Assembly: GCA_030066475.1 (NCBI GenBank)
Contig: JASJBO010000043.1
Span: 1-53,651 of the forward strand
Reading direction: 5' to 3'
Source of the DNA: Myxococcota bacterium
GTDB lineage: Bacteria; Myxococcota_A; UBA9160; PR03
DNA length: 53,651 nucleotides
Of the stretch, positions 34,664 to 38,073 are shown piece by piece. Every line of letters starts with the position of its first letter. The first letter of the stretch is position 1. The notes beneath the pieces were generated by a model that worked only from the letters and a program-made list of their open reading frames with translations, had not been told where the DNA came from and did not search any database. A program made the position numbers and the translations under genes.

Positions 34664-36814
34664 CTAGCGGGTCAGCCGGCCCACCGCGTTGGCCAGCAGC
34701 TGCAGGCCCAGCTCGCCCGGCGTGAGGATCGATTCCGGGTGGAACTGCACCGCCGCGAGCGGCAGCTCGGCGTGCTCCAGCGCCATCACCACCCCATCGT
34801 CGCTCTCGGCGGTGATGCGCAGCACCTGGGGCAGCGAGTCGCGCACCGCGTACAGCGAGTGGTAGCGCGCCGCCTGGAAGCGCTCGGGCATGCCGTCCCA
34901 CAGCGCCCCGCCGCACGGCGTGATCGTCGAGGGCTTGCCGTGGACGGGGACTCCCAGCACGTCGAGCTTGCCGCCGCAGAACTCCACCAGACCCTGGAGC
35001 CCCAGGCAGACGCCGAAGGCGGGCAGCTCGCGCGCGCGCAGCGCCTCGAGCGTACCGCGCACGTCGAAGTCGGCGGGCGAGCCCGGACCGGGCGACAGCA
35101 CCACCAGGTCGGGCGCCAGCGCGTCGAGCTCCGCGTGCGGGAAGCCAGCCCGCCAGGTCACGACCTCCGCCCCGGTCTGGCGCAGGTAGTTCGCCAGCGT
35201 GTGCACGAACGAGTCCTGGTGGTCGACCAGCAGGATGCGCTTGCCGCTCGCGGTGGGCGCCCACGCGTCGGCGCCGCGCTCGGGCCCGTGGCCGGGGCGC
35301 CGGATCGCGTCGATCAGGGCCGACGCCTTGACGTGCGTCTCCTCCTCCTCGGCCTCGGGATCCGAGTCGTAGAGCAGCGTCGCGCCGGCGCGCACGCGGG
35401 CCACCCCGTCGAGCACGCGGATCGTGCGCAGGGTGAGGCCCGTGTTCATGTTGCCGTCGAAGCCGATCATGCCAACGGCGCCCCCGTACCAGGCGCGCGC
35501 CGACTGCTCGTGGTCCTCGACGAACTGCATCGCCCACGTCTTCGGCGCGCCGGTGACGGTGACGGCCCAGGCGTGGCAGAGGAACGCGTCGAGACTGTCG
35601 AAGCCCGGGCGCAGCACGCCCTCGACGTGGTCGACGGTGTGGATCAGCCGCGAGTACAGCTCGATCTGGCGGCGCCCGATCACGCGCACCGAGCCCGGCT
35701 CGCAGATCCGCGACTTGTCGTTGCGGTCGACGTCGGTGCACATCGTGAGCTCCGACTCGTCCTTGGTCGAGTTGAGCAGCGCGCGGATCTGCTCGGCGTC
35801 CTCGATCGCGTCGCGACCGCGCGGGATCGTCCCCGAGATCGGACAGGTCTCGACCCGGCGCCCCTCCACGCGCACGTACATCTCGGGCGAGGCGCCCACC
35901 AGGTAGTCGCGCTCGCCCAGGTTCATCAGGAAGCCGTAGGGCGAGGGGTTGCGCTCGCGCAGGCGCCGGAACAGCTCGGAGGGCGGCGTCTCGCCCGGCT
36001 CGAGGAAGGTCTGGCTCAGCACGACCTCGAACAGGTCGCCGCGCCGGAACGCCTCGCGCGCGGCGCGCACCGACTCGGCGTAGGCGCCGGGCGGCTGGTC
36101 GGCGCCGGGCTCACCGGGGGCGCCGCGGAAGGGCTCCTCGGCGCCGGCGCGCGGCAGCTCGCGCGTCGAGCGCCCGTCGATCTCGAAGTCGTAGCGCCGC
36201 CGCACGGCCTGCTCGCGGCGATGGTCGACGATCAGCACCTCGTCGGGCAGGTAGAGCACGACGTCGCGCTGCCCGGGCGGCCGCTCCAGGCGCAGCCGCA
36301 GCGGCTCGAACTGGAAGGCCAGGTCGTAGCCGAAGGCGCCGTACAGACCCAGGTGCGCGTCGGCATCCGAGCCGAACAGGTCGACCAGCGCGCGCAGCAG
36401 CGAGAACACCGAGGGCTGTCGGCTGCGCTCCTCCTCGGGGAAGCGCCCCTCGGGCTCCCGGATCGCGCAGCGCAGCTCGCCGCGCTCGCGCTCGAGCGAG
36501 GCGACGGCCGGCAGCGCCTCGAAGGTCCGAGCGATCGGCCCGAGCAGCAGCGCGCCGCGCTCGTTCAGCGCGGTGACCCGCGCCTCGCGCCCCCGCGACG
36601 TCAGCACCAGGGGCGGGTCGACGAAGCCCATGTCCCAGCGCGTGTAGCGCCCGGGATACTCGTAGCTGGAGGCCAGCAGCACGCCGCGCCGCGCGTCGAG
36701 CGCGTCGATCAGCGCCTCGAGCGAGGCGTGCCCCTCCACCGCCTCGAGGCGGCGCCGCACCCGCAGTCCACCCCGGGTGGCGTAGTCCCGTTCGCCGTCG
36801 TCCGACCCGATCAT
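34664..36814 (-). CDS. trpE(G): Fused anthranilate synthase TrpE-TrpG
   Basis: A 716-residue fusion that converts chorismate and glutamine to anthranilate, the first step of tryptophan synthesis. Residues 1 to about 510 are the TrpE part: LLASSYEYPGRYTRWDMGFVD is the N-terminal region with the Trp-sensing LxxS-type site, and EVVLSQTF, GASPEMYVRVEGRRVETCPI, SGTIPRGRD and CTDVDRNDKSR are chorismate-binding motifs. Residues ~525-716 are the glutamine amidotransferase: VLSPGPGSPADFD, FGVCLGLQG with the nucleophilic Cys, and VQFHPESILTPG with His-Glu. This matches the single-chain form of rhizobial TrpE(G). The ATG at 36814 follows AGGAG. The gene is preceded by a complete attenuator (36815-37051). 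No other trp gene follows; an amine oxidase is next. Confidence 0.95.
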   Translation of the reverse strand: MIGSDDGERDYATRGGLRVRRRLEAVEGHASLEALIDALDARRGVLLASSYEYPGRYTRWDMGFVDPPLVLTSRGREARVTALNERGALLLGPIARTFEALPAVASLERERGELRCAIREPEGRFPEEERSRQPSVFSLLRALVDLFGSDADAHLGLYGAFGYDLAFQFEPLRLRLERPPGQRDVVLYLPDEVLIVDHRREQAVRRRYDFEIDGRSTRELPRAGAEEPFRGAPGEPGADQPPGAYAESVRAAREAFRRGDLFEVVLSQTFLEPGETPPSELFRRLRERNPSPYGFLMNLGERDYLVGASPEMYVRVEGRRVETCPISGTIPRGRDAIEDAEQIRALLNSTKDESELTMCTDVDRNDKSRICEPGSVRVIGRRQIELYSRLIHTVDHVEGVLRPGFDSLDAFLCHAWAVTVTGAPKTWAMQFVEDHEQSARAWYGGAVGMIGFDGNMNTGLTLRTIRVLDGVARVRAGATLLYDSDPEAEEEETHVKASALIDAIRRPGHGPERGADAWAPTASGKRILLVDHQDSFVHTLANYLRQTGAEVVTWRAGFPHAELDALAPDLVVLSPGPGSPADFDVRGTLEALRARELPAFGVCLGLQGLVEFCGGKLDVLGVPVHGKPSTITPCGGALWDGMPERFQAARYHSLYAVRDSLPQVLRITAESDDGVVMALEHAELPLAAVQFHPESILTPGELGLQLLANAVGRLTR

Positions 36815-36857
36815 GTCCGCTCTCCTGCGCCGCGGGGTCCGCGGAACCCCGCAACGC

Positions 36858-36893
36858 GAAACCGCCGCCCCGATTCACCGGGGCGGCGGTTTC
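36858..36893 (-). terminator. Attenuator terminator hairpin of the trp leader
   Basis: Perfect 15-bp stem GAAACCGCCGCCCCG / CGGGGCGGCGGTTTC with a six-base loop, between the leader peptide and trpE(G). The 3' arm ends GGTTTC but no clear U-run follows, so strong GC pairing must do most of the work. The 5' arm can pair instead with 36912-36921. Confidence 0.75.
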
Positions 36894-36910
36894 GAGCCCT
36901 GTACGACGAA

Positions 36911-36931
36911 GGCCGCCCCGGGGAGGCGGCC
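36911..36931 (-). promoter_or_regulatory. Antiterminator segment of the trp attenuator
   Basis: On the minus strand this segment can fold on itself (GGCCGCC with GGCGGCC). Alternatively, CCGGGGCGGC within it (36912-36921) can pair with GCCGCCCCGG (36878-36887), the 5' arm of the terminator. The two pairings exclude each other, as expected for segments 2 and 3 of an attenuator. Confidence 0.6.
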
Positions 36932-36965
36932 TGGATCGACTGCACGCGCAGCGGGGGCCACCTCG

Positions 36966-37013
36966 TCAGCGAGGGACCCACCACCATCGGAGCGTTCGTG
37001 CAGCCGTCGACAT
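36966..37013 (-). CDS. trpL: trp leader peptide with three consecutive Trp codons
   Basis: A 16-codon frame (ATG at 37013, TGA at 36968-36966) encodes MSTAARTLRWWWVPR, with TGG-TGG-TGG at 36986-36978. Three adjacent Trp codons, a basic C terminus and position ahead of fused trpE(G) match the rhizobial leader peptides, which end in IWWWAR in Sinorhizobium. When charged Trp-tRNA is scarce the ribosome should stall on the Trp codons and favour the antiterminator. No Shine-Dalgarno sequence is well placed; TTGACG at 37051-37046 could be a -35 giving a transcript start close to the ATG, so the leader may be leaderless as in Sinorhizobium. It overlaps no other gene. Confidence 0.8.
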   Translation of the reverse strand: MSTAARTLRWWWVPR

Positions 37014-37047
37014 CGCGGCGTGAACTTCCCACAGCGGCCCGTTCCCG

Positions 37048-38069
<1,022 letters not shown>

Positions 38070-38073
<4 letters not shown>

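Follow-up and report, generated by a model that had tools for sequence, protein, structure and literature searches.

The fused anthranilate synthase gene trpE(G) on contig JASJBO010000043.1, a stretch of 53,651 nucleotides that is called the window throughout, appears to be controlled by an attenuator like trpL of the rhizobia, with a translating ribosome governing transcription, and its host lies outside the Alphaproteobacteria; we give this reading a probability of about 0.87. The leader region occupies the 233 bases between the end of a threonine-aldolase-like gene (37048) and the start of trpE(G) (36814), and contains a 15-codon open reading frame (ORF) and three strong hairpins. An earlier note on this DNA, made from its letters alone, had proposed such attenuation, with a 15-bp perfect stem as the terminator and a 10-bp pairing between that stem's 5' arm and an upstream hairpin as the antiterminator. 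Comparison with related loci upholds a trp arrangement of the ribosome-mediated type before a fused trpE(G) in a non-rhizobial genome, but not the choice of terminator. Homology points to the 10-bp hairpin at 36932..36910 as the terminator rather than to the 15-bp stem at 36893..36858. The segment that pairs with it for antitermination is GAGGTGGCC (36964..36956), and the 10-bp pairing is a later, additional one linking the terminator to the second hairpin, not the core antiterminator. This is a genuine case of a known kind of attenuator in a new lineage, of which the coupled second hairpin is the most unusual part. The gene and the elements of its attenuator are as follows.

34664..36814, minus strand: fused anthranilate synthase trpE(G), 716 aa (TIGR01815, TrpE-clade3, 1092.3 bits against a cutoff of 739.15)
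36858..36893, minus strand: hairpin 2 (regions 5:6), 15-bp perfect stem, loop GTGAAT, no U-tract (sequence, fold)
36878..36887, minus strand: region 5, GCCGCCCCGG, 10-bp pairing with region 4 (complementarity, folding)
36910..36932, minus strand: hairpin 1 (regions 3:4), 10 bp, AGGCCGCCTCCCCGGGGCGGCCT, terminator by homology (position and sequence common with relatives)
36912..36921, minus strand: region 4 stretch CCGGGGCGGC, able to pair with region 5 (complementarity, folding)
36923..36931, minus strand: region 3, common to the antiterminator (2:3) and the terminator (3:4) (complementarity, alignment, folding)
36956..36964, minus strand: region 2, GAGGTGGCC, directly 3' of the leader stop codon (9-bp complementarity to region 3)
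36966..37013, minus strand: leader ORF MSTAARTLRWWWVPR, 15 codons, ATG at 37013 and TGA ending at 36966 (sequence, relatives, promoter spacing)
36972..36979, minus strand: region 1, 7-bp pairing with 36962..36955, which overlaps region 2 (hairpin list)
36978..36986, minus strand: three consecutive Trp codons TGGTGGTGG, predicted ribosome stall site (sequence)
37023..37028, minus strand: predicted -10 box GAAGTT, 17 nt from the -35 box (conserved positions in relatives)
37046..37051, minus strand: predicted -35 box TTGACG of the leader promoter (TTGAC spacing kept in relatives)

In the proposed mechanism, RNA polymerase would start at the leader ATG or a few bases from it, as the promoter spacing implies, and a ribosome would translate MSTAARTLRWWWVPR. 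When charged tRNA-Trp is plentiful, the ribosome would reach the stop codon and cover region 2 (36964..36956), allowing the 3:4 terminator at 36932..36910 to form. When charged tRNA-Trp is scarce, the ribosome would stall on the Trp codons and leave region 2 free to pair with region 3 before region 4 is made, such that no terminator would form and trpE(G) would be transcribed. Hairpin 2 would be an added element; by pairing with region 4 once that is free, its 5' arm may hold the leader in the read-through state for a time. The ORF, the promoter motif with its spacing, and the mutually exclusive pairings with their position and conservation are seen in the sequences; we infer the transcription start, the ribosome footprints, the response to tryptophan and, since the U-tracts of the window are poor at either hairpin, termination there.

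Leader, predicted promoter and proposed terminator

The leader peptide with three TGG codons that the earlier note described was confirmed, with TGGTGGTGG at 36986..36978 inside the ORF MSTAARTLRWWWVPR, and TGGTGG is invariant across 20 aligned leaders. That alignment (A2) holds 20 of the 28 WW leaders (those with at least two consecutive tryptophans) found outside the Alphaproteobacteria; the other eight were omitted, L085, L086, L091 and L092 having long spacers and L105, L106, L108 and L114 being near-copies. The TTGACG seen earlier near the leader start is likewise present, at 37051..37046. A TTGAC lies 35–39 nt 5' of a leader start codon in 19 of these 28 leaders, against a background expectation of 0.012 per locus, the start codon having been chosen, among those 30–60 nt from TTGAC, as the nearest to 38 nt, which favours that value. 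At an exact spacing of 17 nt, the putative -10 box has A at position 2 in all 19 loci and T at position 6 in 18. The other nine leaders have no TTGAC at 35–39 nt; seven are Binatia, and six of these seven carry, by eye, a TATAAT-like box at the equivalent place. No sigma-70 site was returned by a simple scanner in 36300..37400. We read TTGACG as the -35 box of a conserved promoter and, because the spacing from promoter to start codon is conserved, would expect transcription to begin at the leader ATG or within a few nt of it. The leader mRNA is therefore probably leaderless, as in Sinorhizobium. The TGA within the -35 box TTGACG also serves as the stop codon of the upstream threonine-aldolase-like gene.

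Identification of the terminator depends on the four closest relatives (L081, L082, L001 and L084). Each has one strong hairpin, AGGCCGCCTC...GAGGCGGCCT or near to it, followed by TTTTTCG or similar, at 54, 54, 56 and 57 nt from the first Trp codon; hairpin 1 of the window lies at 54 nt. A counterpart of hairpin 2 was not found in L081, and the best candidates in L082, L001 and L084 reach only -10.0 to -14.3 kcal/mol. We assign the terminator to hairpin 1 because these relatives carry that hairpin with a U-tract and have no comparable second hairpin, and for the same reason the 15-bp stem is not supported in that role. Nor does the 10-bp 4:5 pairing survive as the antiterminator, since the relatives use region 2 paired with the 5' arm of the U-tract hairpin instead. 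Across the 28 loci, hairpin 1 starts 49–67 nt after the first Trp codon in 25, and at least five T occur in the 10 nt at its end in 24 (the window has four). The hairpin-1 strings were set by hand; automatic choice took hairpin 2 in the window, L097, L098, L099 and L114.

The earlier note had suggested looking for covariation of the stems across homologous leaders, and for the stem of hairpin 1 it is found. In alignment A2, 98.5% of cells are paired and 12 cells are changed on both sides, values that none of 500 shuffles reach in either case; two weaker measures are reached more often, by 24 of 500 shuffles for the number of pairs altered on both sides and by 111 of 500 for further pair types. 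Region 2 has the consensus GAGG[CT]GGC(C) near the leader stop and is complementary to the 5' arm of hairpin 1. The resulting 2:3 pairing is kept in 89% of cells, against 34–61% when the segments are slid, and in L115 regions 2 and 3 are GTGAGACGG and CCGTCTCAC, both altered with complementarity retained. The 2:3 duplex of the window is -19.7 kcal/mol, which 3.8% of shuffles equal.

The geometry of the leader fits the mechanism. Measured from the first Trp codon, the leader stop lies at 18 nt and region 2 at 22–30 nt; on an assumed footprint, region 2 would be masked by a ribosome at the stop codon and left free by one at the Trp codons. Sequence and folding both indicate that 2:3 and 3:4 are mutually exclusive, sharing region 3. 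When truncated RNAs are folded with region 2 free, 2:3 has a probability of 1.0 as soon as region 3 is out; a ribosome placed at the stop codon gives 3:4 a probability of 0.99.

Distribution, origin and counter-evidence

The closest proteins with known neighbourhoods are 75–77% identical to the trpE(G) of the window and all belong to one class. Metagenomic trpE(G) relatives, P0002–P0064 among them, show 70–77% identity. When 282 genomes were drawn from the phylum to which Sorangium cellulosum belongs, members of this class (G033, G034, G035, G037, G062, G074) were among them, and the relatives are hence Myxococcota. On one protein and a FastTree tree, the window genome is placed outside the Alphaproteobacteria, most likely in the Myxococcota. 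The same upstream neighbour occurs at the four closest relatives (by tblastn, 4 of the 21 loci searched). The remaining features of the locus are listed here.

36822..36826, minus strand: AGGAG ribosome-binding site of trpE(G) (sequence)
36827..36857, minus strand: third hairpin, 14-bp stem, its 3' end adjoining the trpE(G) ribosome-binding site (fold)
37048..38073, minus strand: threonine-aldolase-like upstream gene (Beta_elim_lyase, PF01212)

The earlier note expected homologous trpE(G) genes to carry a WWW frame, and most of the relatives checked do have WW or WWW leaders. Upstream ORFs were counted in the 300 nt 5' of trpE(G) and compared with dinucleotide shuffles, after second copies from the same genome, two fragments, unfused genes and loci with less than 300 nt upstream had been dropped. 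Outside the Alphaproteobacteria (n = 51), a WWW ORF occurs at 21 loci (0.0 expected) and a WW ORF at 30 (0.6 expected), the 30 including the window, two aromatic-rich leaders (L023 and L032) and a doubtful ORF (L088); L099 was scored as a miss, its leader lying partly beyond 300 nt. Among alphaproteobacterial loci (n = 52) the counts are 37 for WWW (0.0 expected) and 46 for WW (1.45 expected). By group, WW or WWW leaders stand at 10 of 13 fused trpE(G) loci in the nearest class, including L130 on a second contig of G033 (a further two, matching at 42% identity, belong to another type and lie outside the 13); at 14 of 15 loci in a Binatia order, the fifteenth (L100) having only 199 nt upstream; at 5 of 5 loci in the class of G006; and at 4 of 11 in the order of G009, plus one with WCW. 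Contamination was considered for L009, on a 3.4-kb contig, and is unlikely given that all five loci of its class have the leader.

A WW leader was not found at L004 and L007 (Sorangium), L006, L010 (Rokubacteria), L011, L087 and L090; at gammaproteobacterial L015, L020 and L026; at L017, L018, L021 and L024 from Chloroflexi; at L013, L014, L016, L022, L041 and L073 from Actinomycetota; or at six alphaproteobacterial loci. Fourteen loci without a WW leader gave no Rfam match at gathering. On the trpE(G) tree, which was made with FastTree only, includes 23 of the 52 alphaproteobacterial loci and has weak deep forks, the WW leader was gained or lost at least eight times, and so does not simply track trpE(G).

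A covariance model built without alphaproteobacterial input recovers 41 of the 52 alphaproteobacterial trpE(G) leaders at E <= 0.01, a number that rises to 46 at E <= 0.1; the six that it misses are exactly those without WW. Its matches overlap RcsR1 (RF02552) in L045, L058 and L066, which RF02552 itself matches at E 5.1e-9 or better, L066 falling below gathering. RF02552 has no match to the window at E <= 1 or at gathering, and none to L003, L081, L082 or L096 at E <= 0.1. The sole Rfam match at E <= 1 in 36000..37500 is to Plasmid_R1162 (E 0.16, below gathering), which we take as chance. The covariance search also gave weaker matches, on the opposite strand and to bare terminators. With model R1, 26 of the 282 genomes from the Sorangium phylum have matches at E <= 0.001. 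Of thirteen further loci inspected (L123–L128, L130–L136), L130 alone is preceded by a WW leader; L124 has TGGTGG but no leader ORF, and the 11 without TGGTGG resemble plain terminators. As most of these further loci look like plain terminators, the model alone does not reveal attenuators.

Several of our results weigh against this interpretation of the window. Once complete, hairpin 1 beats 2:3 at equilibrium even under stalling (0.70–0.97), and because 3:4 wins at equilibrium once region 4 is out, antitermination must depend on timing. The 2:3 pairing shows no covariation beyond shuffles, 360 of 500 reaching its paired percentage and 68 of 500 its covariation score; we attribute this to the pairing being too invariant. 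Own 2:3 partners average -18.9 kcal/mol, little better than -18.2 for swapped ones, and taken singly only 15 of the 28 loci, the window among them, do better than 95% of shuffles. In the window only TCGTCGT follows hairpin 1, and with four T the 10 nt at the end of this hairpin are poorer in T than those of most relatives; no terminator passes a simple scan of 36300..37400, in keeping with the weak U-tract already conceded in the earlier note. The leader is missing from three of the 13 nearest-class loci (L087, L088, L090). Finally, GCCGCC/GGCGGC terminators are common in the Myxococcota genomes searched with the model, for which reason model matches alone are weak evidence of descent.

Other kinds of leader were seen at some loci. 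Of the ten trpE(G) loci found in the class of G012 and G013 (L153–L162; 16 genomes searched, titled Gemmatimonadetes and Latescibacterota), all are preceded by a U-tract terminator and by an aromatic-rich ORF of 39 aa (...SDLFTWWPFYGTRRHVMRSGA). Over about 140 nt this leader has a mean identity of 98.9%, compared to 76.9% at third codon positions of trpE(G), a conservation that would seem to exceed the needs of attenuation alone. In L112 and L113, from other Binatia-class genomes, a probably unfused trpE is preceded by the leaders MLITGCSVGAWAAWWWRATQQACAPVP and MNVEAMTLKLEAGSRRWWHTIALACAPGS, with ACAP common near the end; in both a stop lies inside the trpE(G) match, and L112 has a U-tract terminator. 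Three Chloroflexi loci without a WW leader (L017, L018 and L024) have a terminator-like hairpin with a T-run about 30 nt 5' of trpE(G), with no Rfam match.

The second hairpin and rival explanations

The 15-bp perfect stem and its competing 10-bp pairing were both confirmed in the window, at 36893..36858 and at 36921..36912 with 36887..36878 respectively. The 4:5 duplex (-26.1 kcal/mol) is equalled by none of 300 shuffles, and under simulated stalling the emergence of region 5 returns 2:3 and 4:5 together to a probability of 1.0. Hairpin 2 is the most stable hairpin of the leader (-37.4 kcal/mol with flanks) and, once complete, forms with a probability of 1.0 in every ribosome state. A repeated palindrome was considered for hairpin 2 and rejected; the closest other copies on the plus strand of the window have at least eight mismatches in 28 bases.

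Elsewhere, a second hairpin follows hairpin 1 in each of the 14 Binatia loci tested. Its 5' arm can pair with region 4 (a fraction of 0 to 0.087 of the shuffles do as well), and in 11 of the 14 the hairpin has a T-rich tail. The 4:5 pairing is also better than shuffles in the window, L091 and L009, but no better than 10% of shuffles in eight of the 10 other loci scored (L082, L001, L084, L085, L086, L089, L092, L012), the poor scores of L089 and L092 being partly due to the script picking another hairpin; L081, L115 and L116 have no second hairpin to score. Own 4:5 partners are better than swapped ones, with 6 of 20000 permutations as low over 12 loci and 128 of 5040 over seven Binatia representatives, from segments picked by eye after the pairing was known and with relatedness uncorrected. 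Only in the window, L089 and L002 is the own partner the best of the 12. In L002 and L096 the 4:5 helix extends into loop bases with differing sequences. These results suggest a coupled two-hairpin attenuator in Binatia, which would offer a natural test of one stalled ribosome controlling two hairpins in series. By eye, L151, of the class of G006, likewise shows two successive hairpins, and L098, L002, L003 and other Binatia have a GGCC.GGCTC-like stretch between hairpin 2 and trpE(G) that is partly complementary to the start of region 3.

For the window, in which hairpin 2 has no U-tract, four rival explanations can be set against one another. That the 15-bp stem is the terminator, with 4:5 as the antiterminator and hairpin 1 an ordinary upstream hairpin, would account for its exceptional stability and for the significance of 4:5; the closest relatives, with their U-tract at the first hairpin and no comparable second one, together with a stem that forms whatever the ribosome does and has no U-tract, make this very improbable. 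A double attenuator, in which both hairpins stop transcription or expression and stalling leads to 2:3 and then 4:5, disabling both, is what the Binatia loci and the permutation results would favour. We nevertheless consider it rather unlikely, given that hairpin 2 of the window has no U-tract and beats 4:5 at equilibrium, that folding outcomes in L103 and L105 shift with ribosome position and RNA length, that own partners are seldom the best, and that most other scored loci do not exceed shuffles or cannot be scored at all.

Alternatively, hairpins 2 and 3 might act after transcription, as an RNase barrier or on trpE(G) translation, independently of the attenuator. The absence of a U-tract after hairpin 2 and the position of hairpin 3 beside the AGGAG site would agree with this, as would L091 and L092, in which a hairpin buries the AGGAGG site. 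Yet AGGAG lies outside the hairpin in the fold of the window and the 4:5 complementarity would be superfluous, and we rate such a role as quite possible though short of an even chance. The last explanation, an inherited attenuator whose termination was lost in the window genome through U-tract decay, would follow from the weak T-stretch after hairpin 1 and its absence after hairpin 2; it is improbable, as leader ORF, promoter, region 2 and both arms of hairpin 1 are intact, and the tail of L085 likewise starts TTCGTT.

Returning to the leaderless WWW attenuator that we favour, we can offer only tentatively a broader scenario in which trpE(G) often moved or was inherited across phyla together with that switch, which in several lineages (the window, the Binatia order and one genome of the class of G006) became a double lock, stalling giving 2:3 and then 4:5 so that two serial hairpins are disabled by one ribosome. 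In Binatia the second hairpin would be a terminator; in the window, L091 and L092 it may influence RNA stability or translation. In the latter two loci, a hairpin just 5' of trpE(G) pairs GCCTCC with the AGGAGG ribosome-binding site; its 5' arm looks pairable with region 4 (in L092 by eye), which would couple attenuator to translation.

Comparison with known attenuators

These results indicate that attenuation of trp genes by a WWW leader peptide, probably leaderless, is not confined to the rhizobia. The same layout stands upstream of trpE(G) in genomes titled Deltaproteobacteria, Binatia/Binatota, Acidimicrobiales and Chloroflexi, and gene and switch therefore seem to have been inherited or transferred together, with frequent loss or gain. 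In the open-licence literature we found no report of a trp attenuator in Deltaproteobacteria or of attenuation in Binatota, and nothing on myxococcal leader peptides or on tandem terminators with a leader peptide. Through such distant leaders, the age of the trans-acting RNA and peptide of Sinorhizobium meliloti becomes testable.

The his attenuator of Salmonella consists of six alternating regions (A–F) with His codons, and only its last hairpin terminates. The window resembles it in the alternative chains 1:2, 3:4, 5:6 and 2:3, 4:5, a 4:5 pairing between successive hairpins having been found, but differs in that its hairpin 2 has no U-tract, its first hairpin is the homologous terminator, and its codons are for Trp rather than His. 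The trp leader of Escherichia coli has two Trp codons. Tandem Trp codons and mutually exclusive pairings are common to that attenuator and the window, while the leaders themselves differ; PMC7298713 describes both features for trp attenuators.

The closest likeness is to rhizobial trpL-trpE(G), represented by the rnTrpL small RNA and peTrpL peptide of S. meliloti and by RcsR1 (RF02552). Both systems have a fused trpE(G) of TIGR01815, a WWW leader, a region 2 near the stop codon and a GGCGGC/GCCGCC terminator hairpin. In S. meliloti the leader RNA has the trpL ATG as its 5' end (PMC7298713), and to judge from promoter spacing the leader of the window would likewise begin at the transcript start. 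RcsR1 and rnTrpL are transcribed from the identical position (PMC7143759). Unlike its rhizobial counterparts, the leader of the window differs in sequence apart from WWW, belongs to another phylum, and has an extra second hairpin and a weak U-tract. On the strength of these sequence comparisons, the window element would work like the rhizobial attenuator and is probably related to it.

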